A stretch of DNA of 29,013 bases, taken from the IMG/VR virus record IMGVR_UViG_3300030389_003520, positions 1 through 29,013 of that record, one strand, 5' to 3'. How positions within the stretch are numbered: position 1 is the stretch's first letter; every line of letters begins with the position of its first letter. The stretch comes from a virus. The notes under the pieces are model-generated. The model worked only from the letters and a program-made list of their open reading frames with translations, had not been told where the DNA came from and did no database searches. Below are positions 361-29,013 of the stretch, piece after piece. The position numbers were made by a program, and so were the translations under genes.

Positions 361-3300
361 TTATTTTTTACTTTTCCTTTTGTTTTCTAACTGTATGATT
401 TTATTTACTCTGTCTTCTTCATATTTTAATTCTCTTATTTGTTTAGGCGTTAACCCAAAATCTATAAGCATATTCACTTGATCTTTTTTATTCATTTTAA
501 ATAAATCTATAGATCTTTGTTCTTTTTCTGTAGGTATATAATTTTCAATAGCATTTATTGTAGAATCTATTTTTCTTTCGTTTTTATTACGTAAATTCAT
601 AATAGCGTCTACTCTATCTGCTTCTTTTGGATATTTTTTAGGGTTTAAATTGTTAGCATCAAGTATTTTTATTTGTTCATTTTTACTTAAATCAAATACA
701 GACTTTTCTACTATTTTTAGTTTTTCTTCTGGTGTAGCTTGTTTTAATTTAGTTTCTTCATTTATACGCTTATTATTTTCTCTTATAGCGTTTTTAATTT
801 CTTTTATTTCGTTATCTTGTATACCAACATCCCATCTACTCCAACCAGCTGCTACAGCTACTCTTTGCCACCATTTGTTTTCACTGTCAAGAGCAGCATT
901 TAAGTTTTGTATTTTTCTAAGTAATCTTGCTGTAGGTACATTTGTAAAACCTTCTATATAAGTAGCGCTTGTTTCATATATAGGATTATCAAGATTATCT
1001 AATGGTAACTCTGTAAGCACGTCTTTATTCCACTCTAAGTTTTTCTCAGCTCTAGCTATTTTTCTTATTTTAATACCTATAGGTGGTGATAATTGTAATA
1101 ACTCTTCCCAAGCCGGCGTTTTAAAGAAGCTTTTATTTTCTAAATTATCAGTTAATTTTATAGCATAATTTTTAAGTGTAGATACAATAGCACCACCAAC
1201 ACCTAAACCTTTTAACAAACTGTCTATAGTACCGTTTATTACTCTTTGTTTTTTAGTATCAAAAAACTTTTTAGTTTTTTCTTCGTCTTCTTCTTCTTCG
1301 TCAAACATCATAGCAAACAAAGCGTTTTGTAAAGCGTTAAATATAACTGCTTGTATTGCACCGTAATATATTATTCTTGATATATTAGACATGTCGCTTT
1401 GTACTTGCGTTTGATAACCTCTACTTATTCTTCTATTTACTAAATCTAAACCAGCTTTTTTAATTAATCTAGCGTATTGTGCTGTGACGTTTTGAAACGC
1501 TAGTATAATTCTACCAAGTGTAGAAGTTTGTTGTTGTGACACCATGTCAGGTCTAGCAGACTGCTGTGTAGCTTCAGCTATTTCTTGAAAATCAATGAAT
1601 GCTTTTGACTCTGCTTCTTTTTGTGATAAACCTTGTTTTAAATACGTCTTAATTCTGTTTCTATAAAACGTAGCACCACCACTAGCAATAGCAAAACTAT
1701 CGGCTAATTGCGTAGGTAAAAAACCTATATTTAGTAAATATTTTATTGCTGCTAATACAGGATTTTTAGAGCCTGCAACTTCTCTAGCTATTTCATTTGC
1801 ATTTACATCAAAAGCAGCGCCACTACGTCTTTGTTTTAAAAAGTCAGAGTTAAATAAAGCTGCAAAATCAGACCAAAACTGTTTTTGATTAGCAAAAGCT
1901 GCTGCCGCTTTAAATATATTATTATCGCCAAAGTTTATAAAGTTAACTGTAGATAATGTCTGTAATACAGCAGATCTAGCATTAAAAAACATCGTAGCAC
2001 CAACCGATCCATTTATCCAGTCTAAAAACTTATTAACTATACGGTTATTACCAGCAGGTCTATTGCTACCAGTTTTAATTCTATAAAGCATATCTTGTAA
2101 GGCTTCTACAAAGTTATCACCAAATGCAGCTCTAATTTTATTCATATTTTCATCAGAAAATATTATATCTACATTTTCTTGGAACTCTGTAAAAAACTTA
2201 GCTCTACCAACTCTACCCGTAGCATCAACTAAATCATATCTAATGTTACTAGCTTGCCAACTATCACCAGGTGATACATAACCTTCTTCAACTCTTGATA
2301 TTTTACTTATTTGTTCAGCAAACTGCAATATTTCAATATCATTTTTTACAAAATCAGTTAAGTTTTTTAAATCAGTTTTAGTTAAACCAGGTATTTCAAA
2401 GCCAGCTTTATCAAACAAATAAACTCTTATAGCATCTTCTACAGTATAATCACCTTTAAGTATTTTTTCGCCTAAACGTTTACGTACTTGTGGCATTGAT
2501 TTTACTAAATTTCTATAGTCATTTGCTATGGCTTGTTTAGCTACGTTTAACTCTCTAAAAGCTCTGTTTAATGGTCTTATTAAAGCTTTTTCAAAAAAGT
2601 CTCTATGTTTGTTACCTTTTTCACCAAAACCTATAAAGTTATATAATAAACCTACAAAGTCTTCGTGTGATGGTGGTACAAAAAATCTAAATCTACCTTT
2701 ACCTCTACCTCTCGCTCTAGCTTTTGCATCAGAAAAACGTTTTTTAGCATCTATACCTGTAACATCATCTAGTATTTTATTAAAATCATTATCTAATGAA
2801 TTACTAAACTTAATTTTAGCTTGCACAGATTTACCTTTAATATCTAGTTGATTCATTAAATCTTTAACAGCTTTAACATTAGGTAATGCGTCGTCAACAA
2901 AATACATGTCGTTATAGCCTTCGGCATATTTACTAGCCATCCACATTGCTTTAGCTTCACCAGTACTATTACCTAAACCAGTAATATTTTCTATTGGTAT
3001 AGTTATACCTTTAGTTTTTAACCACTCATGTATTGCGGTAGCGCTTTCAGGTGGTCTAGCAGTTAATATATAATTATTTTTAGGTCCGTATTTTTTTATT
3101 CTATTTTTAAGCTTTTGTAATAATGGACCTGCAACTCCACCTCTAACGTTAACAAAATCTTTAAAATCAAAAGTATAACCTTGTTCAGCTAGTTTAGGTC
3201 CTTGTATCGGCCATTGACTGCTAGTTATTTTAATTTGTTTACCATCTGGACTAGTAGCTAAAATAAAGTTTTCGCCTCTATCAATTAACGTTTCATCAAA

Positions 3301-6300
3301 ATCAAAAGTAGACATACCTCTAGATGTTTTACTATATTTTATGACTGGTCTAGAGTTTTCAACAGCTTTTTTAGTAATACTAAATTGTATTTTACTATTT
3401 GCTTTTTCAGCTGATTTACCAAGTCCTTTAGCTATTGTTTCGTTATTTATATCAACTTCAGAAGGTATAAAGTTTTCGCTTAATATTAATGGTCTAAGTC
3501 TAAATTTTATCTTACCATTTACTATATCCATGTTAGCAACAACATCTATACTAGAAGCTTTTTCAGCGTTAAAAGCTAAGTTTGGTATTTCAACACCAGT
3601 TTCATTAAAAAATTCCTCGGTTAAAACACTGGTATTATCATCAACTTTTTTATTTCCTGTTTGTAATCTATAAAGTTTACCTTCAATTATTATAAAACCT
3701 TGTGGTTGTTTTTTATATTTACCATTTGCATAAGCAGACATTATATAATCTAAACTAACTTGCTCTTCTAGCATAAATAAATGTCTAAATGGCTTTATTG
3801 CTTCTATTTGTTCAGATGTTAATTCTTTTGTAAAATCAGTTATTAGATCAACATTAGGATAATAGTCTTTTAAATGTTTATTAATTTTTTCACGTACTTT
3901 TAGCATTTTCTCACCTATAATATCATCAAATAAAACCTGACTATCATTTGAAGTTTGATTTTTATTAGGAAAATTAATACCTTGTTTAGTGTAACTTAAT
4001 AACTGACTAACACCCTGAGCTATACCAAGTTTAGATTCAAAACCAAAAATAACGTTACTAAAAGCAATATAAGTATCTCCTATACCGTTTATAAAATTAG
4101 CTGTTTTAGGAAAATATTTTTGCAATATGCTTCTGTCTTTATTTTCGTTTTCTATACCAGCATTTGTAACTTTATTATTTTTCTTAGCTTGTAATATTTT
4201 ATTTAATAAGTAATCTCCTAGTTTTTTATCAACAGGTCTAGCATATCTTTTATCAATACTCATTTTGTAAGCTAGCTCAGCTATTATAGACTTGTCTTTA
4301 CTAGACATTGTTTTAGAACCAGGTCCAACTATTCTTTTAGCTTTACTAGCATATTCAATATAATCTTCTTTAGTTTTAAGTTTTGGATCTTTTAGCGCTA
4401 TATTTAAATGTTCTACTAAATTTTTATTTGCAAAAGTTTCTTTATCAAGCTGCTTACCAGTTAATGAAAACTTAATACTAGGATCTCTATTTATAGTTGC
4501 AGATAAAATTTGTATGTCAGTATCATCTATAATTTCACCTCTTAACTCTGCTATTTGTTGTCTTTTTTCAGCAACCTCAGGCTCTTGAGCTACTTGCATC
4601 GTAGCGTCAAAGTTTAGCGATGCGGCTACGTATTTAGCTAATTGATCTTTTCTAGTGCCTCTTAGACCAGATCTAACGCCAGTTTTTGGATTTACTAATG
4701 GTTGATCAAAAAAAGCTACAAACTGCTCTTCTGTTGGCATTATTTTTTCATATAAATTAACAGATTGACCTTTGTCTATAGTATTTAAAGCAGAAGGCGG
4801 TAAATCATTTCTATTTACAGCGTCTTCTACTTCTTTTTTACTAGTTAGTTTACCTACAAATCTAGTAAACACTCTTTGATCATCAGCAACATTTCTTTCC
4901 ATTTGTACTAAATCAGATGTAAACATAGAATTTATCAAAGCGACTCTAAGTTTTGTTATGGTAGGTATATATTTAGCTTTAGTACCTAACATATTTTTAA
5001 CTTGTTTAAACAAATACACCGAAGCTTCTTTAGTTAAATCTCTTTGTATTTGTCTAACTGTTTTACCTGCGTCATAAGCTCTTATTAGTACTTTACGGGC
5101 TGTATCTAAAACAGTGTTATAAACATCACTATCGTCTTCAATACCTAGCTCTTGTCTAAGCTTTGATTTACTAGGCTCTTCTTTTTTAGCTGTTTCTTTT
5201 TTTCTTCTAGCTTCTGCTTGAGGCGATATATCTTCTGTTTCTAAAGCTTCTAACGTAACATCTGTTTCGTCTGCAACTTGTACTTTTACTTCACCTTCTT
5301 TTGTTCTATCATCTACATCTCTAGCTGTTCTTTGTTCTGTAGTAGTTTTGTATTCTTTATTAAATACATTACCAGCTTTATTAGCTAGTTGACTATTTAT
5401 CCAACCAAATAAATTATCATTAGTTTCTGGATTAAAGTTTCTAATATGATTAGTTAGTTCAGTATATACTTTATCTACAAAATCTACAGGCACTCTATCA
5501 CCTTTAAACTTAGCTGCAATTAGATCATCTAAATAATTATTTTGTTTTATTTCTGTAATAGCATTGTCGGCGCCACCTTCGTCCCAAGCTTTTTTACCGC
5601 CTTCAAAACTATAAGTATCGCCTATTTCTTGTACATTATCAGTTATTTGTTGTTTAGCCTCTGAAGACAAAGATTTTTTAATAATAATAGCATCTTCGTT
5701 TTGTTTAGCAAAATCTAATGCTCTTTTTCCTAATTTACCTTGCTTTATATTTTGATTATATTCTTTTACAAAATCGTAAGCTTGTCTACCGTCACTAAAC
5801 TCTTTAGTATAATCTATATCTAAACCAGGTACAGCTTTAAATATTTTTCTTAAAAAATCTTGAGTAGCAAATTTTATTTTTTGACCAAAAGTTTCATTAA
5901 AAGTTATTTCTTCTTTTACAACAGCGTCAGATAAAGCAGTAAACATTTCATTTACTCCTTTTTTAGTAAATATAGAGTCTCCTTCTAAACCATATTTTTG
6001 TAGCCTATTTCTAACAGCTTGTTGTTGTTTTGAATTTAAAGTAGACATAAATTGTTTACCTAATTTAGCAGCGTCTGAGTCAGAAAGCTTGTCTATATGA
6101 TTACCTATAATACCATGTAAAAGCTCATGCGAACCAACACTTATAGCCCCAGTTTCTTTTGCTGTTAGAGTATTTATATATATTTTGTTTCCTTTAATAA
6201 ACCCATCGGTATTTTTTACATCTCCTTCAAAATCTTTTTCTGTTCTTAATTTGTCGTATTGCTCTTGATAATCTTCTTTAGTCTGTATCTCAACAATTTC

Positions 6301-7683
6301 TTTACCTATTTTATCTCCTTGTTCTTTAGCAAACTCAATATTTTTTTTGTACAGTATATCTATTATAGCTGATTTATTTTTATTGTATTGCTCATTAAGT
6401 CCTTTAACAGCTAGATCAAAATCTTGCTGGCTTATATCGTTGTTTTCAAGTTTTTCTACTAATTGATTAATTCTAAAAGCTGAAACATCAGCTAAATCAG
6501 ATAAACTTTCTATATTTTTTATATCTTTATCAGTAAGACTACTATAAATATCATTACCTTTTTTAATCTTGTTTTTTAAAGTTTTTTTAGTTTTATTTAT
6601 CTCTTTTTTTAAAGCAGATTTAATATCTAAATCATCAGTATTATTAAGACGTCTAGTTAAATCAACTAAATTTGATAATTCTTTTTCAACATCTAATTCT
6701 TCACTAGATTTTCTAATGTTGTTTAGTGCTTTAGCAGAGTAAGCAGTACCTTTTAAACCACCACCACCAAAAAATCCTTGTAATCCAGCTTCTATACCTT
6801 GTGGACTAAGAAAAGCATCTGTAAAAGTCATAAAAGGATTTATATCTTTGCCTTCAGCGTTAGCTATTGCTAATTCTTTATTGTATATTTCAAGAGCAGT
6901 TTGACCCATTTCTGTTAAGGCCTCGGTACCAGCAGCAGAAAATATATCTAATCCTACTCTTACGTTTTTGTTTTTATTATAAAGTTTAGTTAAACGGTTA
7001 CCAACAGCTTTTTTATAAGCTTTATCTACACCCGTACCTTTTAAAGGTGCCATTATTTTTTTAAAACCAAAGTATTCTAAACCAGCTTGTAAAGCGCCTA
7101 TTTTTAAAGGCGCGCTTATTTCTGCATCACCAGAATTAACTAACTGATCTAAAGTTAAACCTTTTGATTTTGCTTTTATTTTGTTAGCTTCTATAAAATT
7201 GTCCGTAGTAAATTCCATTAAAAACCCTGTGCCTGCAGTACCAAGATTATAAGCAACAGATCCAAGTGCATTTATTATTGAACCAGCAGCTACAGATAAA
7301 TAATCTTCTAAAGTTTCTGACTCAGCAAAAGTTTTAGTTTGTCTTCTGTCTTTTTGCTCTATTTGAAAGTTTTTTATCATTTGTTGAAACTCAGGAGTAT
7401 CAGTAGTATAAATTGTACCCATCCACTTGCCAAAATCAGTTTCGTTTATTTCTTTTATTTTATCTTTTCCAAATATATTTTCATAAATTATAGAAGATGC
7501 TGCCATTAGACCACTTTGAGCTCCTTCACCGCCACCAAACCAATATTCAGTTATATCACCTATTTGTTCAAAGGCGTTATAAAGATTATCTTTAAAATTA
7601 TCCCAATTAGTACCTTCGTATTCTTTAGGCTTTGTATTAACAGGCTGTTGACTAAAAAATTCAGTTAAATATTTATTTGACAT
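361..7683 (-). CDS. giant polyvalent ejection/virion protein (2440 aa) with zincin-like, HAD phosphatase-like and membrane-active segments
   Basis: It occupies the place of T7 gp16, third in a gp14-gp15-gp16-like row, so it is probably packaged and ejected with the DNA. In order: glycine-rich hydrophobic segments at about residues 128-155 and near 300; a zinc-peptidase motif HELLH at 519-523 with NEMFTA at 578-583 supplying a possible third ligand, E579; a patch at 730-775 (FNPETNDNLFGWIN) faintly like sigma-70 region 2; a lysine/glutamate-rich linker near 800-860; a HAD-type phosphatase at about 1455-1615 with DFDET (D1461, D1463, T1465), LTARP (T1541) and VDDA (D1597, D1598); and a helical C-terminal part from about 1680 with the phrase RPDMVSQQQTSTLGRIILAF near 2040-2065 and an acidic run (DEEEEDEE) near 2130. 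Phrases like this C-terminal one recur, from memory, in large polyvalent phage proteins. IKFS-like motifs lie between the domains. The gene is certain; domain functions are inferred from motifs. Confidence 0.85.
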   Translation of the reverse strand: MSNKYLTEFFSQQPVNTKPKEYEGTNWDNFKDNLYNAFEQIGDITEYWFGGGEGAQSGLMAASSIIYENIFGKDKIKEINETDFGKWMGTIYTTDTPEFQQMIKNFQIEQKDRRQTKTFAESETLEDYLSVAAGSIINALGSVAYNLGTAGTGFLMEFTTDNFIEANKIKAKSKGLTLDQLVNSGDAEISAPLKIGALQAGLEYFGFKKIMAPLKGTGVDKAYKKAVGNRLTKLYNKNKNVRVGLDIFSAAGTEALTEMGQTALEIYNKELAIANAEGKDINPFMTFTDAFLSPQGIEAGLQGFFGGGGLKGTAYSAKALNNIRKSSEELDVEKELSNLVDLTRRLNNTDDLDIKSALKKEINKTKKTLKNKIKKGNDIYSSLTDKDIKNIESLSDLADVSAFRINQLVEKLENNDISQQDFDLAVKGLNEQYNKNKSAIIDILYKKNIEFAKEQGDKIGKEIVEIQTKEDYQEQYDKLRTEKDFEGDVKNTDGFIKGNKIYINTLTAKETGAISVGSHELLHGIIGNHIDKLSDSDAAKLGKQFMSTLNSKQQQAVRNRLQKYGLEGDSIFTKKGVNEMFTALSDAVVKEEITFNETFGQKIKFATQDFLRKIFKAVPGLDIDYTKEFSDGRQAYDFVKEYNQNIKQGKLGKRALDFAKQNEDAIIIKKSLSSEAKQQITDNVQEIGDTYSFEGGKKAWDEGGADNAITEIKQNNYLDDLIAAKFKGDRVPVDFVDKVYTELTNHIRNFNPETNDNLFGWINSQLANKAGNVFNKEYKTTTEQRTARDVDDRTKEGEVKVQVADETDVTLEALETEDISPQAEARRKKETAKKEEPSKSKLRQELGIEDDSDVYNTVLDTARKVLIRAYDAGKTVRQIQRDLTKEASVYLFKQVKNMLGTKAKYIPTITKLRVALINSMFTSDLVQMERNVADDQRVFTRFVGKLTSKKEVEDAVNRNDLPPSALNTIDKGQSVNLYEKIMPTEEQFVAFFDQPLVNPKTGVRSGLRGTRKDQLAKYVAASLNFDATMQVAQEPEVAEKRQQIAELRGEIIDDTDIQILSATINRDPSIKFSLTGKQLDKETFANKNLVEHLNIALKDPKLKTKEDYIEYASKAKRIVGPGSKTMSSKDKSIIAELAYKMSIDKRYARPVDKKLGDYLLNKILQAKKNNKVTNAGIENENKDRSILQKYFPKTANFINGIGDTYIAFSNVIFGFESKLGIAQGVSQLLSYTKQGINFPNKNQTSNDSQVLFDDIIGEKMLKVREKINKHLKDYYPNVDLITDFTKELTSEQIEAIKPFRHLFMLEEQVSLDYIMSAYANGKYKKQPQGFIIIEGKLYRLQTGNKKVDDNTSVLTEEFFNETGVEIPNLAFNAEKASSIDVVANMDIVNGKIKFRLRPLILSENFIPSEVDINNETIAKGLGKSAEKANSKIQFSITKKAVENSRPVIKYSKTSRGMSTFDFDETLIDRGENFILATSPDGKQIKITSSQWPIQGPKLAEQGYTFDFKDFVNVRGGVAGPLLQKLKNRIKKYGPKNNYILTARPPESATAIHEWLKTKGITIPIENITGLGNSTGEAKAMWMASKYAEGYNDMYFVDDALPNVKAVKDLMNQLDIKGKSVQAKIKFSNSLDNDFNKILDDVTGIDAKKRFSDAKARARGRGKGRFRFFVPPSHEDFVGLLYNFIGFGEKGNKHRDFFEKALIRPLNRAFRELNVAKQAIANDYRNLVKSMPQVRKRLGEKILKGDYTVEDAIRVYLFDKAGFEIPGLTKTDLKNLTDFVKNDIEILQFAEQISKISRVEEGYVSPGDSWQASNIRYDLVDATGRVGRAKFFTEFQENVDIIFSDENMNKIRAAFGDNFVEALQDMLYRIKTGSNRPAGNNRIVNKFLDWINGSVGATMFFNARSAVLQTLSTVNFINFGDNNIFKAAAAFANQKQFWSDFAALFNSDFLKQRRSGAAFDVNANEIAREVAGSKNPVLAAIKYLLNIGFLPTQLADSFAIASGGATFYRNRIKTYLKQGLSQKEAESKAFIDFQEIAEATQQSARPDMVSQQQTSTLGRIILAFQNVTAQYARLIKKAGLDLVNRRISRGYQTQVQSDMSNISRIIYYGAIQAVIFNALQNALFAMMFDEEEEDEEKTKKFFDTKKQRVINGTIDSLLKGLGVGGAIVSTLKNYAIKLTDNLENKSFFKTPAWEELLQLSPPIGIKIRKIARAEKNLEWNKDVLTELPLDNLDNPIYETSATYIEGFTNVPTARLLRKIQNLNAALDSENKWWQRVAVAAGWSRWDVGIQDNEIKEIKNAIRENNKRINEETKLKQATPEEKLKIVEKSVFDLSKNEQIKILDANNLNPKKYPKEADRVDAIMNLRNKNERKIDSTINAIENYIPTEKEQRSIDLFKMNKKDQVNMLIDFGLTPKQIRELKYEEDRVNKIIQLENKRKSKK

Positions 7684-7705: not shown

Positions 7706-9394
7706 TTATAAATCATCTATGGCATCATAATTATTATTAATCATACCAAACATAATAGCTATTAATTTTTCTGTATTTTTTACATCGTCAGAAATAGTAT
7801 CAAATCTAATTATTTGACCTTCATTAGGTCTGTTTCTATGAGTAACTTTTAAAGCATCAGACTCTAAAGTGCCAAGATCTTCATATTCAAATGTAAAACC
7901 ATATTCTCCGAACTCTCTGTTTAAACTATTAACAACAAAATCATCATCACCGTAGCTAAGTAAATAATCACTTACTTTTCTACCACCAATAGTAGCGTCT
8001 TGTGACAATAATTTATTTACTTTAGCATCAAACACGCCTTTTCCACCACTTACCATAGATAAATCTTTCGCGTTTTTATCATCTGTTTGTGTTGCAATAT
8101 TTTTAGATGTATTAATTTCACTATCAACAAAATCTATTATATTTTGTTCGTTATATCCTGGGGTGCCTTTGTACGTGTTTTTTAACATATCTATTATTTG
8201 AAGTCTACTTAGATCTATTCTGTAACGCGAGTCACCTGGAACATGTTGTACAAAAGGATTTCCGTTATCAAAACCAATTGTTGCTTGTTCAACATCCATA
8301 GGTTTATTATTATCTAAATTATTAATAGTGTAAGCTGGTAAAAAACTATTGCTTCCTTCAGTGTCAAAATTATCTACAAAATCTTTAAAAGAACCTTTAG
8401 TAATATTAGCTGGCGGTGGGTTATAACCACCTGTATTTCCTCTATTATTTCTTGTATTTCTATTACCACTGTATTGTTGCATACCACCAGCGTGATATTG
8501 ATCTCTTAAAACACCTAACAAGTGGTTACCAAAAGCATCTATTAAACCTTCGTCTTTTTTATATTCTTCTAATAACTGTTCATAACCTTCGTCACCTGGT
8601 TTTTTACCAGTTTTGTTTTGTATGTACTGATGTATAAACTGTATAGGTTGACTATCATCTAGTAAATTACCAGTTTTTACACCGTCATAAGCAAAGTTTA
8701 TAACTCTATCAATACCGCCGCCTTTAAACATAGTTTTTATAGCAGCTTCATATTTAACAGGATCAAAGTTAATACCTGCTAAACCTTCTTTTTGTGCTGC
8801 TTCTGTAAGTTGTAAATAGCTACCTATTAAAGCACCGTCATCTACAAAACCAGCTTTATAGTCTGTAAATTTTATTCTATTACCGTTTGAAGATAAAAAA
8901 CTACCATTACCACTTTCGTCTATTTCAAAGCTTTGTAAAACATTACCATTAGCCATATTACTATGATCTAGTTTTCTATTTTGATCGTTAGACAAAGCTA
9001 GTTGATCAAAAGTTTCAAGTGAAAGTTTAGCATTTTGTTGATAAGCCTCTAAACTAAGACTTAAGTTTTCAAATTTAGCTTTAACGCCATTTAAAGTATC
9101 CATAGCTTCGTTATACTTGTCACTACCCATAGGTGAAGTAGCTAATGTTTGCGCTGCGTCAGCATAAGACTTTTTATTTTTTGATAAAAAATCAGTAACT
9201 TGTCCTCTTATTTCTTCTGGTACTTTATCAATAGCCACGCCATTTGGCATTAAAGCCATTAAGTTCTTTGTTTTTATTATTGACTCTTCAAAAGGTTTTT
9301 TTAAAGTATCACCTAATGATTTAAAAACATTAGAATATTGCTGTACTTTTGGTACAGTTCCAAAACCTAAATTGTAAAAATTATCTTTTGCCAT
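7706..9394 (-). CDS. internal/ejection virion protein, T7 gp15-like by position
   Basis: A 562-residue soluble, largely helical protein with no transmembrane segment. The N-terminal ~280 residues are helical and Lys/Gln/Asn-rich. A low-complexity Gly/Asn/Arg linker follows at about residues 300-330 (around GNRNTRNNRGNTGGYNPPP), then a mixed alpha/beta C-terminal half. I do not recognise a catalytic motif. It lies between a 372-aa gp14-like protein and the 2440-aa protein, with a 1-nt gap to the upstream gene and 22 nt to the downstream gene, so the three are probably co-translated. In T7-type phages this position encodes the middle ejection protein that builds the periplasmic tunnel. The assignment rests on gene order and size class. 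The start ATG is preceded by the TATAAT-type A/T run common to this genome. Confidence 0.7.
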   Translation of the reverse strand: MAKDNFYNLGFGTVPKVQQYSNVFKSLGDTLKKPFEESIIKTKNLMALMPNGVAIDKVPEEIRGQVTDFLSKNKKSYADAAQTLATSPMGSDKYNEAMDTLNGVKAKFENLSLSLEAYQQNAKLSLETFDQLALSNDQNRKLDHSNMANGNVLQSFEIDESGNGSFLSSNGNRIKFTDYKAGFVDDGALIGSYLQLTEAAQKEGLAGINFDPVKYEAAIKTMFKGGGIDRVINFAYDGVKTGNLLDDSQPIQFIHQYIQNKTGKKPGDEGYEQLLEEYKKDEGLIDAFGNHLLGVLRDQYHAGGMQQYSGNRNTRNNRGNTGGYNPPPANITKGSFKDFVDNFDTEGSNSFLPAYTINNLDNNKPMDVEQATIGFDNGNPFVQHVPGDSRYRIDLSRLQIIDMLKNTYKGTPGYNEQNIIDFVDSEINTSKNIATQTDDKNAKDLSMVSGGKGVFDAKVNKLLSQDATIGGRKVSDYLLSYGDDDFVVNSLNREFGEYGFTFEYEDLGTLESDALKVTHRNRPNEGQIIRFDTISDDVKNTEKLIAIMFGMINNNYDAIDDL

Positions 9395-9395
9395 A

Positions 9396-10514
9396 TTATA
9401 TTGTATATCTTGTTGGATCGTTATACGCTTGATTTATTAAATTTTGTATATAAGCAGCTTCTCCACCTGATCTGTAATCATAATTATTTTCAGCTCTCAT
9501 TTCCTTTCTTCTTTGGCTTAGTTGACCTTTATCGTAACTGTCAGCGTAGTTAAATTGAGGTGTTGCGTTTACAGAGTTAAAGATCGCGTTAGATATTGTT
9601 GGTTGTGATAACGTAGACTGATTAAACAAATTATTAGTAAAATTATCAAGAACACCTGGTGGTGTTGTACGTCTTGGAGTACTTAGTAAATCGTCTCCAA
9701 ATTGAAAATTTTCAGGAATAAAAGAAATATTAGAAGTTTGACCTAAACCTAAGCTTGAGTCTACAGGACTAGATGCTTTTCTATTAAATCCACCAGCCAT
9801 AGCAAATGAACCAGCTGTACTAAGTGCATCAGAAACAAAACCAGTTATAGCTTGAGTTTTTTGCCCTCTTAATAACTCTTCGTTCATATCAAACTGTGTT
9901 TTAGCAGCGTCTCTACCTGCTTTTAATTGCATTATATTTAAAGCTCTTTGGTTTTCATTTTGCTCTCTTAAATAATCACCATAAGCAACTCTTTGCTCGG
10001 CTTGTTGTTCCATAGCAGATACTCTTAGCGCGCCTTGTGCCATTAAAGCTTGATTTCTTGATTCTTGTTGACCTATACTAGCTGCAGCTCTAGCGTTTTG
10101 TAGCGTAGCTTGATTTGCCATAGCTTGAGCTAAACCAGCTATACCGCTAGCACCCGCTGCTCCTCTAAACTGATCCATTATATTAGCTCTACTTTGAGCC
10201 GCTTGTTGAGAAGCAAACTGTGCTGCTTGTTGATTAACAGTTATATCTTCAAAAGGATTTTCAAACTGTGTTTGTATATTAGCAAAAGGATTACTTATTT
10301 CTATATCTTGAAGAGCTTGTAAATTTTCTCTAAAAGTTTCTCCACTTCTTGTTCTTGCTTTTTCTTGTGCTTTTAACTGTCTATTAGCACTTCTATAGTT
10401 TCCAATCGCTTCTACTCCAGCTCCAACAGCGGCACTTATAGCCATAATAGTTAAGGGATCAACAAATTTTGTTGGGCTCTTTTTCATTGGTGTTATTCTT
10501 TTTCCTACAGGCAT
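9396..10514 (-). CDS. internal/ejection virion protein, T7 gp14-like
   Basis: A 372-residue protein with a short basic N-terminus, a hydrophobic Ala/Gly-rich segment at about residues 22-37 (TIMAISAAVGAGVEAIG), and a long Gln/Ala-rich helical body (residues ~40-240, with QQAAQFASQQAAQSR and repeated QALMAQGAL-type heptads). A second small hydrophobic stretch follows near 225-245 (FVSDALSTAGSFAMAGG), then a disordered Ser/Asn-rich tail. A membrane-active start followed by an Ala/Gln-rich coiled region is typical of the first ejection protein of T7-like podoviruses, which inserts in the host outer membrane. It is the first of three adjacent ejection-type genes, after a 49-nt gap that may mark a new translation or transcription unit. 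The function is inferred from composition and position. Confidence 0.7.
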   Translation of the reverse strand: MPVGKRITPMKKSPTKFVDPLTIMAISAAVGAGVEAIGNYRSANRQLKAQEKARTRSGETFRENLQALQDIEISNPFANIQTQFENPFEDITVNQQAAQFASQQAAQSRANIMDQFRGAAGASGIAGLAQAMANQATLQNARAAASIGQQESRNQALMAQGALRVSAMEQQAEQRVAYGDYLREQNENQRALNIMQLKAGRDAAKTQFDMNEELLRGQKTQAITGFVSDALSTAGSFAMAGGFNRKASSPVDSSLGLGQTSNISFIPENFQFGDDLLSTPRRTTPPGVLDNFTNNLFNQSTLSQPTISNAIFNSVNATPQFNYADSYDKGQLSQRRKEMRAENNYDYRSGGEAAYIQNLINQAYNDPTRYTI

Positions 10515-12269: not shown

Positions 12270-15200
12270 TTATATAGGTCTTACTGGAACTCTTCGTTTT
12301 ATATCTATTAATATTTGAAAATCTTGATTAGGCATAGTCCAACCACCGTTTGGTCCAGCTGAATAAATTACTTCACATCTTATTCTATCAGGATACGGGT
12401 ATCTATAACCAGGCGTAACTTGGTCAACATCATATTCTTCTATTAAAAATATATCACTAACACCTGGATACAGCTCTGTTAATAGAAGCTGTTGTAGTTG
12501 TCCTGTACTATAATCGTTATAAAGCTGACCATCAACAGTAATTCTCATAACAGTTTCACATTTTAAGTTTAAATTATTAATTCCTGGTAAAACTTCTCCA
12601 TGAGGCGAAAGTGCTGATGGGTTATTGTTTAAAAATATAGTTTTTGTAGGCATTAAAACAGCAGGTACATTTTGATCTGCAAATAAAACTCCTGGACTAG
12701 AAAATCCTGGTCTTGCAATAAAAGCAAAAAAGTCTGAAGCCGCTATATTAAAACCATCTGCTGGTAATATATTGAAAGAGTCAAATCTTAAATTTTGAAA
12801 AATACTATTACTAGAGTGATACAAACCTGGCTCTACATCTTCTGTATGTATATTTGTAGTAAAGCTATTATCGTCTATACTTGATGTTCCAGTAGTGTTA
12901 TTAGAATTTATTTCACTAAATCTTTGAACATCTTTTAATGTAAACAAAAACGTTGTCTCAGCATTTGGATCTGTAGCTAAAGATACACCTGCCGCGGCTG
13001 TTATTCTACCTATACCTTGTACGTGAAAAGACGCTGGATCAAAATCTGCCGTAGTGCCTTTTATATAATTATACCATTTACCTTCTTTTTTAATAAACTC
13101 ATCTATAGTACCTTGTTGAAGATCTGTTGTTATAAACTCTGTGTACCAACCTTTTTTACTTGTTATATTGTAATACTCACCGTCTCCGTATGTAGCTACG
13201 TTTTGACCAGGTATTAAAGGTGCAAACTCATCTATTTTTGACTGTGTACCTTCATAACCTAAAGCATAGTAATTTTTTACTGTACTTGGTGAATTATTTA
13301 AAAGTACTTGAAAACTAGAGTCATAATGTTTACCATAAAAATTATTTCTAGTTACATTAGTATAGTGTTTCCAAGGTTCACCGTTTTTCATACTAAAATA
13401 ACTTCCAGAAACACTAACACTTTGCTCTGGTATATAAGATTTAAAACTGGTCCAACCTTTTACGTCTTCTTGATAACTAATTGTTTTTTCAAAAGCAGCA
13501 ACTGTATTAACATCATATTCATCTTCACTACTAAAGTTTTTTATTAAAGTTAAATCATAAGCTTGGTTTTCAATATCATAACCTCCTAATAATCTCATTG
13601 GGTTATTAACATTGTCTTGATGCTTAAAATTATCTCTAAAATAATTATTCATACCAGCGTTTGATATAGGTGTTAAACCATCCATAGATAACCTAAGTAC
13701 AGCGCCTCTTTGTTTGTCTGTAAAATAAGCTCTATATCCATAAGAAGCAAAAGACTCTGGATTTTTAGATATACCATAGTCACCTACAAAAGGCATTGTT
13801 TGTCCTAAAACTCTAGCGTTAGCTGTTAACTGTGGATTACCATCTGCATTAAAAACAGCGTCTTTATTAGCTAATATTTTTAAAACTTTATCTTCACAAA
13901 AAGCAACTAAATCTGTTTGTCTTGAAAATAACTTTTGTATACTACCGTAAGTCGGATTTAAATCTTTAGTTATTTTTTCTGCTTGTATAAACTGGTTAAA
14001 ATTATTAACGCCACTAGTAGAATTATATAAGCCTGAAAATATTAAACCATATTTCCTACGTTGTTCTTCGTAAGGCTCGTCTAATGTACTAGATGCTTTA
14101 GCACCATTATCTATTGTTATAGAGTTAAATGTATCTCTAATTCTATCAGACTCAACTCCATTACCAAAAGAATAACAATTAAACCAATTTAAACCTATTT
14201 TTTGATTTGAAACATCTTTTTCAACAATAACTTCATTGAAATAATCTTGACCTTGAATATCAATTGGCGTACCTACAAAATCTATTATTTTGACTTGTTT
14301 ATAAGTACCATCATTGTTAGTTAATTTAATAAGTTTATTTTGTAAAACTCCACCTATAACTCCATTAGAAATTTTTAAAACTAAATGACCATTAGAATTT
14401 ATACTCCAATTACTTAAAACAATATTTTCACCTGTTGCGCTAGTGTTAATTATATCTAACGCAAACAAAGGATTAACTGCTTCTACAAAAGAACCTATAG
14501 GCGCGTATAAAGGCGCTTTTAATTCATCAAGTTTTGTAGGTATAAAATCAGTTGCTTCGTAATATATTTCTAAGTCTTGATCTTCTTTTGGTTCTGTTTC
14601 AAATATTGCAGGGTTTTCTGGAAAATCTATTTCGTTGTCTTCTAGTATATAATTATTAGTAATTATCTCTATACTACAAGGAAAATCATCAATAGTAGTT
14701 ATTTGCGACCCACTACCATCGCCATTATCATATAGTGGATGATAATCTGTCCAATCAGGATCGTTACCATCTAAATCTTCTAGCTCTATTCTAAACGTTA
14801 TTCTACGATTATGATGTGCGTTAAAATATCTTATAGCAGCATCAAGATTAGCTAAGTCTGTTGTAGTGACGTTAGGTTGATTTATACTACCGAACAAACT
14901 ATCCCAGTCAGCTAATATATCAGTATATGGAGCTTGATTTGTGTTAAAAGTTGATATTAAAGGCATATCGTGGTAATTAAACTTAAAAAACTTTTTTACA
15001 CTTTTTATATTGTATATTATTTGGTTAGGATCATTTGTAAATCTTATTTTATTTCCTTCAAATAAGTTATCCGCAAACTCTCTTGCGTTTTTATCATATT
15101 CTTTGTTTATACCCCAATATCCAGCCCAAGGCATATCACCACTCATAACATTAGCTGGAGCAAGTGGATTATAATTTTCTGTATTAAGTGTTTCTAAATC

Positions 15201-18200
15201 TTGACCTGGTTGTACTCCATACGGACCAACATAAGAAATATCTAAAGTATTATTAGTAACTCCGGCACCAGTACTGTAATAAATAAAATCACTAGTATTG
15301 CCACCATGACCTAAACCAACTAAACCTATCTGATCTGCAAAAGTACCAAAGTCAGAACTAAAATTAGTAAAAGGATTACCAGAAAATGATTGGTGTCTTA
15401 GAGTTGTAAGATTACTATTAGTAATTAACAAATGTTGTCCAAATATTGTAGAAGAACCAGTTGCAAAAAGCGCTGTTTCTTTTGAATCATCAAAACCAGC
15501 TAATCCCCAAAAAGGCTCTTCACCAGCTGCGTATGCTTCATCAATTATCCAACCTCCACTTCCATAAGCGTTAGAAGAAGTATTTTCAGAGCTATCACTA
15601 AGTATTTTATATATAGATCTCCAAGCAAAATAACTACAATAAGCATCAGTCGGTATATCTACACCTTCAGGATAATTATTGTTAAAATCTGTTATTACCC
15701 CAACGTGATTAGCAGCGCTTTTGTTACCAAAAAAAGGATAAGGTAAACTAATATCACCAGGTGTATCATCTTCTGTAAAGTTTTTTGCGTAAAAAGCTTT
15801 TATTGTATTAACTACTTTTGTTTGCTGAAAATTAGAAGTTGCTACAATAGCTTTTTCTATAAAAGCATCTCTAAGTATTTTTACAAAAAATCTACCTTGA
15901 AAAAGAGCTAAATTTTGTACAATATCTTGTGATATTTCTATTTTTATATTAGAATTACCGTTAACAGTGTCGTTATAAGTAGCAACTAATGACGTAGGTG
16001 TAGTATCTATAAAATCTACTGTTTCATTTAAAGCTTTTTTAAATCTAATATTATATCCTGTGGTAGTTCCAGAAGTATCTTTTTCTTTTTTTACACTATC
16101 TATTTCAAAATAATCACTAACTTTTCCATTTTCAACATTATTAGCATCTTCACCTATAAACCTTACGTATAAAACCCTGTCTCTGTCTTCTACTTTTTGT
16201 TTTTCGTCAAAATCTTCTAGCAACGTATTAACAAAACTATTTTGTAATTTTATTTCTTTGTTACCTCTTACTGGTTTAAAATCGTTTGCAGTTGCAGGAG
16301 CAGTAGCAGACGATGTGTTTACAAAAACATTACTATTACCAGTAGTAGCATCGTTTTGATTTCTAAAAGTTCCTATTATAGCTTTTCTAGTTTTAATATA
16401 CTCTGGAGCTTCGTTTTCTATAGCTAATATTTTATAAGTTTCTCCAGAAGTTTCAGCGACATCAACGTCTAGTCTCTTTTTTAATATTAAAGAAGTATCT
16501 ATATCTAATTTATTTCTATCTGAAGAAGCAAAACTAAGCCACACATTACCATCCTTTGCATCAAAATATCTATCTAAAGCTAAATTATAATACTCTGTAG
16601 ACGTTTCTTTTATAAAAACTTTAAAATATTTTGCCCAAGAAGGAGCTTCAGTATTGTTTTTAAATGCTAACTGCGTTTGTCTGCCAGAATCTAATTTATT
16701 TATTTTAAAACTACCAGTGTTATTTGAAAAAACTGGAGACTGTCTTTGATATTCGTCTGCATAAACAACACCTATTTGATATTCTCTTATAGATTTTAAA
16801 GACTTAAAACTACTACCTCTTTGTTCTAAATATACGTTTAAATCTATAGTGTTATCAAAATTATAATTTTGCAAATAATTAGCATAAACTATTCTACTAC
16901 CAGTTATTTCTTGTGCTAAAGCATTTCTAGGAACATTGTCATAAGGTCTTAAAAGTTGATTAGAAGGTAATAAAGACTGTATATGTTCTGCTTTAATAGA
17001 GTAAACATTGTTTATATAAGCATCATCTGTGTTTTTAAACTCAGTTACTTTGTAAATATTTGTTGAATTAGATTCTTTGTATAATAACTCAATTTCTTTA
17101 ACGTCTTTTGGTAAATCTTTTTGAACAATATTACTAACTTTTATTTCTTTTACAGAGTTTTCCATACCAAGATTATAACCTTTATCTACAGAATAATCAT
17201 ATTGCGATGGTAAAAAAGCTATTTCAGAAAAAGATGAAAAAGCAGAGTATTCTCCGTCTATATATTTATATCTAAAAGCAAATCTAGGAAACTTTAATTT
17301 ATATAAATTTTTATCAAAAGTATCTATTTTTACAAAAAAATTCTTTGTAACGTCTAAATTGTCTACTATTGATAAAACCCTACAAGTGTAATTAAAATTA
17401 TCTACATCAATTACTAAAACTCTAATATCAGCTTCTTTAACGTCAAACTGTCCGTTTAAATCAAATGTTTGTTTTAATGCAAGAGTTTCACCTTGTTTTA
17501 TAGTATCAACGTTCAAGGTTAAGTTTACAATATCTGATACTTGTAATCCAACTGTAAAACTAGTAGTACCTTTTACTTCGTTATCAGTACCTATTAGTTC
17601 TAAAATAGGTGATAAACTTGGCGCTCTACGTATTACAGTAACATGTTCTTCTGCTAATCTAACACCATCGTTTGTTGTTATGTTTTGATTTGGATTAACT
17701 AATAAAGTGTGTGCGTTGTTAATTGTACCTTCTATACATCTAGGTATGTTTATTTTTTTAGGCTCTGAAAACCCATCTGTAAAAAACAAAAGATCATCAA
17801 CAATATTTATACCTGTTATATAGTTTTTCTTTTGAAAATTTAAAGGTCCGTTTAAATCTTCAAATACAAAAAAATTAGGAGTTTGATTAGGAGATACAAT
17901 AGTATAAAGTTCACTCAAAGTTATTACTAACTTTTGAAACGCTTGACCAGTAGTAGGTATTGTAAAACTTCCAGCTACAACAATGTCTTCTATAACAGTG
18001 TTTTCTTCAAATAAATTTTTTATAGTAGTTGCTTGTGTAGGTGAGTTTGCATCTGGCTGTTGAGCTGCAAAACAGTTAACCTTCATACCAATTTTTAAAG
18101 TTTCTTTAGGTACTGCTACTGCTATTTGTTTTGCGTTAATAAGGGGTGAAGGTCCAGAAGTAGGAAATCCTTTTGAGTTAAATCCACTTGGAGGTGCTTG

Positions 18201-18764
18201 TCCAAAAGTACCAAAGTTTTTGTCAACGTTAAACTCTGTGTTAAATATTTCTAAAACAACGGTATGTTCTTCTGATACAACTGTTTTAGACTCTCCACTT
18301 TCAGTGGCTTCGTGTTGAAAAATATAATTTTTGTATTTATGTATGCCGTTAGACTTTAAATAAAAACCAGGTGTTTCACCAAATATTTCATCTGTAAAAG
18401 CGCTTTGGTTTGGTACTAAATCAAATGGTAGTTGAGTATCAAGGCCGTGTCTAACTAAATTATAAAATACGTCGTTTTTTTCATCTGCTATAGAACCAAT
18501 AGAACAACCTACTGTATCAATAGGAACATCTGGTGGTAATGTGTTAGTATTACCAGCTTCAGCGTAAACACCAAAAGCAGTTGCTTTAGGTAAAATAAAT
18601 TGTTTTGTATTACCTAATATATTTTGAATAGTTCCAACGTCTGAACCATCAGAAGTAGAAATTTGTATATTTTCTGCATTTCTATATTGACCGTTAGGTA
18701 CTATTCTTTCGTCAAGGTCTTTGTTCATTTTACCTTGAGCGAACGTATATTTAATTTCCGGCAT
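12270..18764 (-). CDS. giant neck/tail-hub protein, P22 gp10 / crAss-like tail stabilisation type
   Basis: A 2164-residue, almost wholly beta-rich protein. It opens with KYTFAQGKMNKDLDERIVPN and then RNAENIQIS, an opening I associate with phage tail-hub or DNA-stabilisation proteins of the P22 gp10 kind, which close the DNA channel under the portal and adaptor. A conserved propeller-like region lies at about residues 1615-1692 (LVAFCEDKVLKILANKDAVF, later YGYRAYFTDKQRGAVLRLS). The C-terminus is basic (KRRVPVRPI). There are no transmembrane segments. It is far longer than T7 gp12 (about 800 aa) or P22 gp10 (about 470 aa), so large beta domains have probably been added between about 300 and 1600. 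It follows the adaptor gene with a 3-nt gap, as expected for interacting neck proteins. Confidence 0.75.
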   Translation of the reverse strand: MPEIKYTFAQGKMNKDLDERIVPNGQYRNAENIQISTSDGSDVGTIQNILGNTKQFILPKATAFGVYAEAGNTNTLPPDVPIDTVGCSIGSIADEKNDVFYNLVRHGLDTQLPFDLVPNQSAFTDEIFGETPGFYLKSNGIHKYKNYIFQHEATESGESKTVVSEEHTVVLEIFNTEFNVDKNFGTFGQAPPSGFNSKGFPTSGPSPLINAKQIAVAVPKETLKIGMKVNCFAAQQPDANSPTQATTIKNLFEENTVIEDIVVAGSFTIPTTGQAFQKLVITLSELYTIVSPNQTPNFFVFEDLNGPLNFQKKNYITGINIVDDLLFFTDGFSEPKKINIPRCIEGTINNAHTLLVNPNQNITTNDGVRLAEEHVTVIRRAPSLSPILELIGTDNEVKGTTSFTVGLQVSDIVNLTLNVDTIKQGETLALKQTFDLNGQFDVKEADIRVLVIDVDNFNYTCRVLSIVDNLDVTKNFFVKIDTFDKNLYKLKFPRFAFRYKYIDGEYSAFSSFSEIAFLPSQYDYSVDKGYNLGMENSVKEIKVSNIVQKDLPKDVKEIELLYKESNSTNIYKVTEFKNTDDAYINNVYSIKAEHIQSLLPSNQLLRPYDNVPRNALAQEITGSRIVYANYLQNYNFDNTIDLNVYLEQRGSSFKSLKSIREYQIGVVYADEYQRQSPVFSNNTGSFKINKLDSGRQTQLAFKNNTEAPSWAKYFKVFIKETSTEYYNLALDRYFDAKDGNVWLSFASSDRNKLDIDTSLILKKRLDVDVAETSGETYKILAIENEAPEYIKTRKAIIGTFRNQNDATTGNSNVFVNTSSATAPATANDFKPVRGNKEIKLQNSFVNTLLEDFDEKQKVEDRDRVLYVRFIGEDANNVENGKVSDYFEIDSVKKEKDTSGTTTGYNIRFKKALNETVDFIDTTPTSLVATYNDTVNGNSNIKIEISQDIVQNLALFQGRFFVKILRDAFIEKAIVATSNFQQTKVVNTIKAFYAKNFTEDDTPGDISLPYPFFGNKSAANHVGVITDFNNNYPEGVDIPTDAYCSYFAWRSIYKILSDSSENTSSNAYGSGGWIIDEAYAAGEEPFWGLAGFDDSKETALFATGSSTIFGQHLLITNSNLTTLRHQSFSGNPFTNFSSDFGTFADQIGLVGLGHGGNTSDFIYYSTGAGVTNNTLDISYVGPYGVQPGQDLETLNTENYNPLAPANVMSGDMPWAGYWGINKEYDKNAREFADNLFEGNKIRFTNDPNQIIYNIKSVKKFFKFNYHDMPLISTFNTNQAPYTDILADWDSLFGSINQPNVTTTDLANLDAAIRYFNAHHNRRITFRIELEDLDGNDPDWTDYHPLYDNGDGSGSQITTIDDFPCSIEIITNNYILEDNEIDFPENPAIFETEPKEDQDLEIYYEATDFIPTKLDELKAPLYAPIGSFVEAVNPLFALDIINTSATGENIVLSNWSINSNGHLVLKISNGVIGGVLQNKLIKLTNNDGTYKQVKIIDFVGTPIDIQGQDYFNEVIVEKDVSNQKIGLNWFNCYSFGNGVESDRIRDTFNSITIDNGAKASSTLDEPYEEQRRKYGLIFSGLYNSTSGVNNFNQFIQAEKITKDLNPTYGSIQKLFSRQTDLVAFCEDKVLKILANKDAVFNADGNPQLTANARVLGQTMPFVGDYGISKNPESFASYGYRAYFTDKQRGAVLRLSMDGLTPISNAGMNNYFRDNFKHQDNVNNPMRLLGGYDIENQAYDLTLIKNFSSEDEYDVNTVAAFEKTISYQEDVKGWTSFKSYIPEQSVSVSGSYFSMKNGEPWKHYTNVTRNNFYGKHYDSSFQVLLNNSPSTVKNYYALGYEGTQSKIDEFAPLIPGQNVATYGDGEYYNITSKKGWYTEFITTDLQQGTIDEFIKKEGKWYNYIKGTTADFDPASFHVQGIGRITAAAGVSLATDPNAETTFLFTLKDVQRFSEINSNNTTGTSSIDDNSFTTNIHTEDVEPGLYHSSNSIFQNLRFDSFNILPADGFNIAASDFFAFIARPGFSSPGVLFADQNVPAVLMPTKTIFLNNNPSALSPHGEVLPGINNLNLKCETVMRITVDGQLYNDYSTGQLQQLLLTELYPGVSDIFLIEEYDVDQVTPGYRYPYPDRIRCEVIYSAGPNGGWTMPNQDFQILIDIKRRVPVRPI

Positions 18765-26965: not shown

Positions 26966-29008
26966 CTATTTTATTATTTTTGAAGTATTACCAGTATTAG
27001 TATATCTAGCAATACTTATATTTAATTTTGGTTTTTCTATTTTTACATTTGGCGCATACAAATGTCTGTTACAAGCCATAATAGCTAGTCCAGAACTTAT
27101 AGAAGCATCAAACTTTGTTCTTTTTGTTATATCAAACTTACCCCAGTCGTTTAAAGTTTTATTAAAATATATATTACCATAAACTCCTTCTCTAATTAAC
27201 CCAACGTGTTGTTGTATGTACATTTCTATTGCAGCCGCGTGAGCTTGCTTTATATCTTCACTAGTATTTGGTATACCACCTATTTCTTTTTCTGAAGTTG
27301 ATAATTTATTCCAAACTTTGTCTGGCCTGTTCATACTATAACCTCTATACCCTCTTCTTCTTAAATGATATAATAGTCTAGGCTTGTTGTTTTCCGCAAG
27401 TATAGGCATGCCATAAAAAACTAATGCCATTAAAACATCTTCAAAAAATATTTCAGCTGTTTGTGGTCTAGCTATATATTCTAAAAAAAAGTGATTAGGC
27501 GGCGCGTCTTCCATGCTAAACTTAGTTAAACCATGCAAAGCTCCATTAGAACCTTTACCATCAACTGTACCTGATATATCGTAACTATCACAACCAAACG
27601 CACCTATATGCTCATTACCAGGATATTTAATACCGTTTTTACTTATTATTTTGTTTTGTAAATGATTTGGTGGAAACCAACTTACATTAAACCTACCTTT
27701 TGGATCAGGATAAAATATTACACTTGTATCTTTAACTCCGTTTACCCATTGGAAATTACCAGTGTTAACATTTCTTTGAGAACCTATACCTTCGTTGTAA
27801 TCTATTTGCTCGTATATTTTTACTAAGTTAAATATACTGTTTTTAGCTTCGTCTCTAAACGCGTGTTCTTCAGTTCTTGGAAACTGTCTGTAAAACTCGT
27901 TTAAAGCATCTTGATCGTTTTTTAAACCTTCAGCTTCGTTTTCCCAATAATCAATAATACCATAATCAATTAATTCGCCATCTGGTCCGAAGACATCGTG
28001 ATCTGGTGTATTAAATACAGGTTTTCCGTATTGGTCAATAAATCCTTCATAGTTCCATTCCATTGGTATAAAAAGAGAATATAAGCCAGACTTTGTTTGT
28101 CCATTACGGTTTCTTGAAGTAACGTCTGAGTCATTGTAAAGTTTTTTAAAGTTATTACCACCTTTGTCTAAAGCGTTACTTGTTGATCCCATCATGCATT
28201 TACCAACTACTCTAGCACCTAAACGTAAACAAGTTTTTGTTACCCGCCAGTTATTTAATATATTATCTGGTCTTTCCCACTTGCCGCTTTCATCGTGTAC
28301 TAGTAAGTTTAGCTTTTCACCATCGTAACTATTATCACCTGTGTTTTTCCAGTCTATAGTTGTATCAAGACCAATTAAATCTTCTTGCTTTTCGTTGGCT
28401 GTTATCTTTTTTCTTGTAAACTTACTAGCTGGTACTCTATAAGCAAGTTCTGTTTTAGGTCTGTCCATACCATCTTGTATAGGCTTGAAGAAAAAAGGGT
28501 AGTTAACTGATATTGGTACAACTTTATCTGTAAACATTTTTTTAGCATCACTACCACTTTTTGATAATATACCATATCTACTATCACTCGATATTGTTGC
28601 TAAATTAACTGTTTCTGCAGACGACATAAAACTAAAGCCAGATCTTCTGTTTTTAAGGTAACACATACCATAGCATCTTTTGTCTGCTTTACAAGCTTCC
28701 CAGAATATAAAAAACAAACGGTTTGCTTCTCTAAAATCTGGAGCACCTACGTCTATTTTACTCCATTGTAAATACATATAGTGACTACCTGTAATATACG
28801 TTGGCTCGTTATTATTCATAAACCAAAAGCCTTCGTCTCTACGTTTAAACTCTTCGTCTATATAATCATACCACTTTTCTTTTTGATCTTCAGGATATGA
28901 TCTCCAGTCAAATATGTTTTTAAGTTTACTTAGTTGTTTTGGATACTCTATTTTTTGCCACTTACCTATTTTGTGCTGCAGTCGCACTGGCAGCAACGGC
29001 AAAGCCAC
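26966..29008 (-). CDS. terL: terminase large subunit (5' end uncertain or chimeric)
   Basis: The large terminase is the ATP-driven DNA packaging motor and headful nuclease. Seen: a P-loop-like segment LKNRRSGFSF (G124), Walker B LLVHDES (D239, E240), a motif III candidate GSTSN (274-278), and RNase-H nuclease acids in FGCDSYD (D474, D477) and FDASISSGLA (D634). The P-loop lacks the usual GKS/T and resembles the deviant lambda-type R-x-G-Y-S form. The reading frame remains open to the window edge. The first about 11 codons before HKIGKWQKIEY are G+C-rich and CTG-rich, unlike the rest, so the GTG start at 29008 is probably not the true start. The gene is followed 4 nt later by portal. Identity is firm; the N-terminus is not. 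Confidence 0.88.
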   Translation of the reverse strand: MALPLLPVRLQHKIGKWQKIEYPKQLSKLKNIFDWRSYPEDQKEKWYDYIDEEFKRRDEGFWFMNNNEPTYITGSHYMYLQWSKIDVGAPDFREANRLFFIFWEACKADKRCYGMCYLKNRRSGFSFMSSAETVNLATISSDSRYGILSKSGSDAKKMFTDKVVPISVNYPFFFKPIQDGMDRPKTELAYRVPASKFTRKKITANEKQEDLIGLDTTIDWKNTGDNSYDGEKLNLLVHDESGKWERPDNILNNWRVTKTCLRLGARVVGKCMMGSTSNALDKGGNNFKKLYNDSDVTSRNRNGQTKSGLYSLFIPMEWNYEGFIDQYGKPVFNTPDHDVFGPDGELIDYGIIDYWENEAEGLKNDQDALNEFYRQFPRTEEHAFRDEAKNSIFNLVKIYEQIDYNEGIGSQRNVNTGNFQWVNGVKDTSVIFYPDPKGRFNVSWFPPNHLQNKIISKNGIKYPGNEHIGAFGCDSYDISGTVDGKGSNGALHGLTKFSMEDAPPNHFFLEYIARPQTAEIFFEDVLMALVFYGMPILAENNKPRLLYHLRRRGYRGYSMNRPDKVWNKLSTSEKEIGGIPNTSEDIKQAHAAAIEMYIQQHVGLIREGVYGNIYFNKTLNDWGKFDITKRTKFDASISSGLAIMACNRHLYAPNVKIEKPKLNISIARYTNTGNTSKIIK

Positions 29009-29013
29009 CCGCA

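Follow-up and report, generated by a model that had tools for sequence, protein, structure and literature searches.

T7 gp16 is a giant ejected virion protein that starts with a transglycosylase domain and, like P22 gp16 and gp20, is a structural ejection protein. Among phages with a related virion module, the comparable gene position is held in Cellulophaga phages by gp101 of phi38:1 and phi40:1 (Pervagoviridae) and by gp120 of phi46:3 (Pachyviridae); the record of phi40:1 gp101 states MS/MS evidence for its presence in virions. According to the main text of Iyer et al. 2017 (PMC5512222), zincins are predicted in polyvalent proteins, for which self-processing by the zincin is proposed, and the N4 virion RNA polymerase (gp50), a giant that is ejected into the host, contains a zincin domain and serves early-infection transcription; the same main text makes no mention of HAD, phosphatase or sigma domains. 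The protein analysed here, P0001, is of the polyvalent type and is predicted to combine a zincin-like domain with a HAD domain and, probably, a sigma-like one.

P0001 is encoded in a window that is an entire 29-kb viral record (29,013 nucleotides), in which all long genes lie on the minus strand in the order terminase, portal, a 414-aa protein, major capsid protein (MCP), ring/adaptor-like proteins, a 2164-aa virion protein, smaller proteins and P0001. The 2440-aa open reading frame claimed in a previous sequence-only reading is present on that strand, and the ORF list and PHROG matches make it the final gene of a TerL-portal-MCP-tail module (Table 1). TerL, portal and MCP (phrog_6681, phrog_6547 and phrog_13704) anchor this syntenic virion module, and homologues of the neighbours occur in the same order in Cellulophaga phage phi38:1 (gp096, gp097, gp099 by HMM; TerL by tblastn). 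The 562-aa protein in the gp100 position has no sequence match to phi40:1 gp100. The notes of the phi38:1 record (KC821614) cite 'phi18:1_gp91-101' as the structural source; phi18:1 is a 39-kb phage, and phi40:1 was probably meant. Cultured-phage relatives of TerL and of the 2164-aa protein belong to phages of Flavobacteriia, the exception being one uncultured record, and of the MAG contigs with P0001 family members roughly half fall into Bacteroidota bins, while the others are mixed in assignment and probably mis-binned; the host group is therefore likely to be Bacteroidota.

Table 1. Features of P0001 and its neighbours, with positions in the window and, where applicable, residues of P0001.
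Feature	Position	Strand	Basis
P0001, 2440-aa polyvalent-type protein	361..7683	-	ORF calling
C-terminal helical module, residues ~1640-2440	364..2766	-	alignment A4, AlphaFold2
HAD phosphatase domain (predicted), residues 1452-1626	2806..3330	-	catalytic set, fold search
Site at which relatives carry inserted cassettes, immediately behind HAD motif I (residue 1466)	3285..3286	-	inserts in relatives
Conserved domain with GTRKD motif, residues ~845-1090	4414..5151	-	alignment A3
Sigma-70 region-2-like domain, residues 679-784	5332..5649	-	VIA-align, profile comparisons
Zincin-like metallopeptidase domain, residues ~435-665	5689..6381	-	conserved ligands, AlphaFold2 layout
Third putative zinc ligand, E579	5947..5949	-	conservation in alignments
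HELLH motif, residues 519-523	6115..6129	-	sequence, family conservation
N-terminal module common to virion giants of Cellulophaga/Maribacter phages, residues 192-411	6451..7110	-	HMM
562-aa protein in the position of phi40:1 gp100 (gp100 in virion, MS/MS)	7706..9394	-	position only
372-aa protein, homologue of phi46:3 gp117 and phi38:1 gp099	9396..10514	-	HMM 3.2e-7 and 1.3e-5
2164-aa virion structural protein, phi38:1 gp097 homologue	12270..18764	-	phrog_14478 1.5e-120; HMM 4e-180
Terminase large subunit (TerL)	26966..29011	-	65% to ctfjg026, 47% to Flavobacterium elemo phages

P0001 itself has no significant match in Pfam, PHROGs or PDB sequences. About 220 relatives were found in viral contigs, those of full length having 2200-4100 aa, yet tblastn found no match among 50,697 phage records; a widespread phage lineage thus carries an unstudied, presumed delivery protein. 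The HExxH and sigma-like counts given below refer to 80 family sequences including P0001, of which 74 include the N-terminal side.

The link to the virion lies at the N-terminus, where an HMM of residues 192-411 has only three significant matches among 170 ORFs: phi38:1 gp101 (2.8e-13), CDS0069 of Maribacter phage Panino (2e-11) and phi46:3 gp120 (1.6e-10). This module is present in 43 family members. The remainder of phi38:1 gp101 differs and has neither an HExxH nor a HAD motif, so that its kinship with P0001, as judged from sequence, is one of a single module and not of the whole protein. The 'tRNA methyltransferase' label of Panino CDS0069 (L084:13229-18718), which has the N-terminal virion module, looks doubtful. 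Membrane-type segments, which had also been claimed for P0001, found weak support, all 19-residue KD windows scoring below 1.6 (maximum 1.47 at 2109); the Gly/Ala-rich stretch at 192-411 is the homologous virion module rather than a set of clear TM helices.

The conserved helical C-terminal module described earlier was recovered by three routes: a mean column identity of 49% in alignment A4, helices in the AlphaFold2 model, and 57 Foldseek matches in BFVD with E<=1e-3, which include proteins named LPD, ART-PolyVal or MuF-C. Outside the close family the fold matches are giant phage proteins, with E down to 1e-12. Comparison of this module with the giants of phi38:1 (gp101), phi46:3 (gp120), Panino and ctfjg026 by HMMER and hhalign gave no support above controls; kinship with the ctfjg026 protein had been considered on a single-member BLAST match (E 5e-4 at best) and was set aside when the profile brought no confirmation. 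That protein (MW202828, L083:741-12320) has 3859 aa, the same gene position and two HExxH motifs; its annotation as 'reticulocyte binding/rhoptry protein' looks wrong, and it has no match in viral_contigs. The suggested likeness to polyvalent proteins agrees with the presence of at least two disparate domains (zincin, HAD and, likely, sigma-like), of an encoding gene that lies among virion genes, and of a C-terminal fold common to giant phage proteins named for polyvalent domains. Comparison with the LPD families gave a divided result: the fold matches include LPD-named proteins, whereas P0001 itself has no Pfam polyvalent domain. Among relatives, matches to catalogued polyvalent domains include LPD14 (0.005) in one and ART-PolyVal (0.12) in an insert of relative L071.

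The HELLH motif lies at the residues where it had been reported, and HExxH occurs in 74 of the 74 viral family members that include the N-terminal side, as against at least one HExxH in only 1.2% of sequences when residues of the family were shuffled. It is also present in 11 of 11 checked members from MAG contigs; the His content of P0001 is 10 in 2440 aa. H519, E520, H523 and E579 are the only invariant columns in 27 aligned sequences (A3), and in 62 more divergent sequences the first three are still invariant and E579 is kept in at least 90%. An AlphaFold2 model of residues 424-1110 (27 sequences, mean pLDDT 75.6) reaches pLDDT 84-93 around the site and predicts the strand-helix layout expected of a zincin, with strands at 39-43, 71-74 and 77-81, HExxH on helix 93-109 and the Glu on helix 151-166 (model numbering). 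Foldseek of this model returned nothing with E <0.001, and the VIA-align matches, to anthrax lethal factor (LF), Certhrax and PPEP-3, are weak (Z 5-5.7); the LF match covers LF residues ~50-260, where the zincin fold is present in its N-terminal copy, which is non-catalytic. A few members have sub-threshold Pfam matches in this region to M78, DUF5700, M91, DUF6782 and M90. With structural Z scores this modest, it is chiefly the conserved ligands, together with the layout and these scattered metallopeptidase matches, that carry the zincin assignment. In five relatives (L034, L038, L043, L047 and L074) another type of zincin apparently occupies the same position, which suggests replacement with the function kept. 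The GTRKD-motif domain, downstream of the sigma-like part in P0001, is mostly helical in the AlphaFold2 model (pLDDT mostly 76-93) and has no specific PDB match in the VIA-align fold search.

The full HAD set proposed at residues 1461-1598 is placed exactly there: D1461/D1463 (DFDET), T1541 (LTARP), K1578 and D1597-D1598 are invariant in 60 sequences. The fold, for which confident prediction had been named as the check, was recovered with confidence from an AlphaFold2 model of residues 1421-2440 (60 sequences, mean pLDDT 77.0): VIA-align against the PDB gave 119 chains with Z>=8, and every row listed is a HAD. For this domain, Pfam DUF2608 is matched in 35 of 39 cases and Pfam HAD in 10 of 39. 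Given their invariant residues, both the zincin and the HAD sites look like active sites under selection. The HAD also accepts other domains, a P-loop kinase of ~200 aa (AAA_33, E 2e-10; zeta toxin, 7e-10) standing directly after motif I in six relatives (L017, L051, L052, L053, L060 and L067), and an ART-like insert of 139 aa, that of L071, at the equivalent of residue 1483. A 179-aa insert just after the HAD in another relative (L064:14486-15022) has no Pfam match and is possibly acetyltransferase-like by eye. Relative L018 has a transglycosylase (SLT) domain at its N-terminus; P0001 has none in Pfam. Four distant members from MAG contigs have no HAD motifs and keep HExxH and the C-terminal module. 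Judged from these insertions and losses, zincin and C-terminal module vary least across the family, followed by the HAD; the sigma-like part is found in 49 of 80 family sequences.

That sigma-like part, residues 679-784, received no mention in the sequence-only reading; it was spotted by eye before the fold result. VIA-align of model residues 259-355 gave E. coli sigma70 (6ca0_F) as first match, with Z 8.1 and 2.5 Å over 88 residues, and sigmaE region 2 with Z 6.8, values to be read against the program's note that helical bundles often reach Z 6-8 by chance and its advice of ~13 for such folds. Such a chance likeness, with 679-784 an ordinary helical bundle, would fit these scores, the lack of a significant Foldseek match and the failure to detect the segment in about 40% of family sequences. 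We nevertheless think it the less probable reading, in view of the sigma factors that make up about two thirds of the VIA-align rows listed and of independent profile searches. A profile of 44 such segments ranked a sigma factor first among 177,635 PDB sequences (E 0.037; second sigma factor 0.29), and Sigma70_r2 is the Pfam family matched most often by the segments, although at 0.05 in just 2 of 44. Profile-profile comparison by hhalign gave P 0.0043 against E. coli sigma factors and P 0.002 against these together with the phages' own, the latter with a score of 27.0 and aligned on region 2; 100 column shuffles reached at most 14.6 and other windows of the family at most 18.1, the two best of which overlap the sigma-like region itself. 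Against phage sigma factors alone the score was only 14.1. Taken together, these comparisons argue that 679-784 probably adopts the fold of sigma-70 region 2, with the predicted sigma function rated lower than the fold. No region 4 was found in P0001 by Pfam or among fold-search matches, and our search of the open-access literature brought up no account of a sigma domain carried in virions. Full-length sigma genes occur in 9 of 23 related phage records, which suggests that these phages re-programme host RNA polymerase. The encoded sigma-70-type factors (L094-L102, in records L062, L075, L026, L037, L053, L017, L011, L049 and L035) are ~250 aa long and show region 2 and region 4-like parts, and in most records a conserved ~200-aa gene with an HTH-like end precedes the sigma gene.

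Computation establishes the domain architecture of P0001, its conserved active sites, its synteny and the homology of its N-terminal module to a virion-detected protein; the best explanation of the whole, module roles included, is in our estimation a good bet rather than a certainty: that the virion carries P0001 as a polyvalent protein and ejects it together with the DNA. Were it instead mainly a structural ejection protein of an inner core or conduit, with the zincin a maturation protease, the HAD a relic or structural element and the enzymes of use in assembly only, its place as last virion gene, the N-terminal module common to virion proteins without these enzyme motifs, the zincin as the most constant enzymatic element and the SLT domain of L018, as in T7 gp16, would all agree. 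We hold this to be unlikely, because a relic would lose the catalytic residues that are invariant in the HAD and because assembly has no need of swapped enzyme cassettes. Compatible with an ejected polyvalent protein, and a refinement of that reading, is the tentative idea that the HAD, together with the kinase in some relatives, heals ends of tRNA or DNA in the manner of T4 Pnkp once host defence has broken them on entry. The three best fold matches of the HAD are polynucleotide 3'-phosphatases (T4 Pnkp, Z 12.4; 1ltq, 12.0; Pnkp1, 11.9) and the kinase lies within the HAD of six relatives, but the rank of Pnkp is nearly tied, the following HADs being within about 1 Z (8a0m, 11.3), and the kinase matches AAA_33 and zeta toxin almost equally well. 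P0001 itself has no Pfam kinase match and hence no kinase fusion of the Pnkp type, and no RNA ligase was found: RNA_ligase matches in three related phages were rejected as support for an RNA-repair cassette, the two checked being ATP-dependent DNA ligases (DNA_ligase_A_M, 6e-18 and 1.6e-10).

If P0001 is an ejected polyvalent protein, it would be packaged in the particle and then delivered into the host alongside the DNA, and the N-terminal and C-terminal modules, to go by their homology and fold, would serve packaging and ejection. The zincin probably processes P0001, cleaving its own chain or partners at maturation or post-entry and so freeing modules. For the sigma-like part, an early engagement of host RNA polymerase is probable, and by binding this enzyme it may aid the start of early phage transcription ahead of any phage protein synthesis. 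From its Pnkp-like shape, the HAD might strip phosphates from nucleic-acid ends or nucleotides, and the variable cassettes of relatives (kinase, ART-like, transglycosylase) would be interchangeable effectors or entry tools. More speculatively, the injected partial sigma factor, as part of a multi-enzyme protein processed by its protease, could steer host RNA polymerase to phage promoters before any phage gene is expressed, with the phage's full-length sigma factor acting later, and would then parallel the N4 virion RNA polymerase with the host enzyme in place of a phage one. Should the sigma-like domain work in this way, the phage could take over host transcription on entering, with no need of a polymerase in the virion. 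Because the zincin is invariant, the self-processing proposed for polyvalent proteins can be tested directly, and the insertion point in the HAD, which takes whole kinase or ART-like cassettes, offers a natural series for probing ejected effectors.

Set beside the known systems, P0001 resembles T7 gp16 in its position as a giant ejected virion protein, and relative L018 also starts with a transglycosylase; P0001 itself has no such domain, and its other enzymatic modules are unlike gp16. The gp101 and gp120 proteins are alike in gene position and have an N-terminal module homologous to that of P0001, but have 1691 or 1439 aa, no HExxH and no HAD motif, and their C-terminal part cannot be aligned by sequence. 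T4 Pnkp superposes on the HAD at 2.5 Å over 129 residues with 13% identity, in a near tie with other HADs, and carries a fused kinase that P0001 lacks. With N4 gp50, P0001 has in common its giant size, a zincin and a proposed role in early transcription; however, no Pfam RNA_pol match, and so no T7-type RNA polymerase domain, is present in P0001, and its sigma-like piece would instead rely on the polymerase of the host. A search of 23 related records for an RNA polymerase gene came back blank, as did that of control genomes, which makes it uninformative. The phage polyvalent proteins described in the main text of PMC5512222 are, like P0001, giant, multidomain and encoded among virion genes, with a zincin-like metallopeptidase, and interchangeable cassettes that include zeta-like kinase and ART-like domains, and the C-terminal fold of P0001 recurs in proteins that bear polyvalent names; P0001 differs in matching no Pfam polyvalent domain and in its HAD and sigma-like domains, which are absent from that main text. 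The earlier remark that it is not standard to find a zincin joined to a HAD stands as far as the check went, and we found no protein in the open-access literature that unites zincin, HAD and sigma-like domains. The class of delivered multi-tool proteins is known, and the domain make-up of P0001 appears new.
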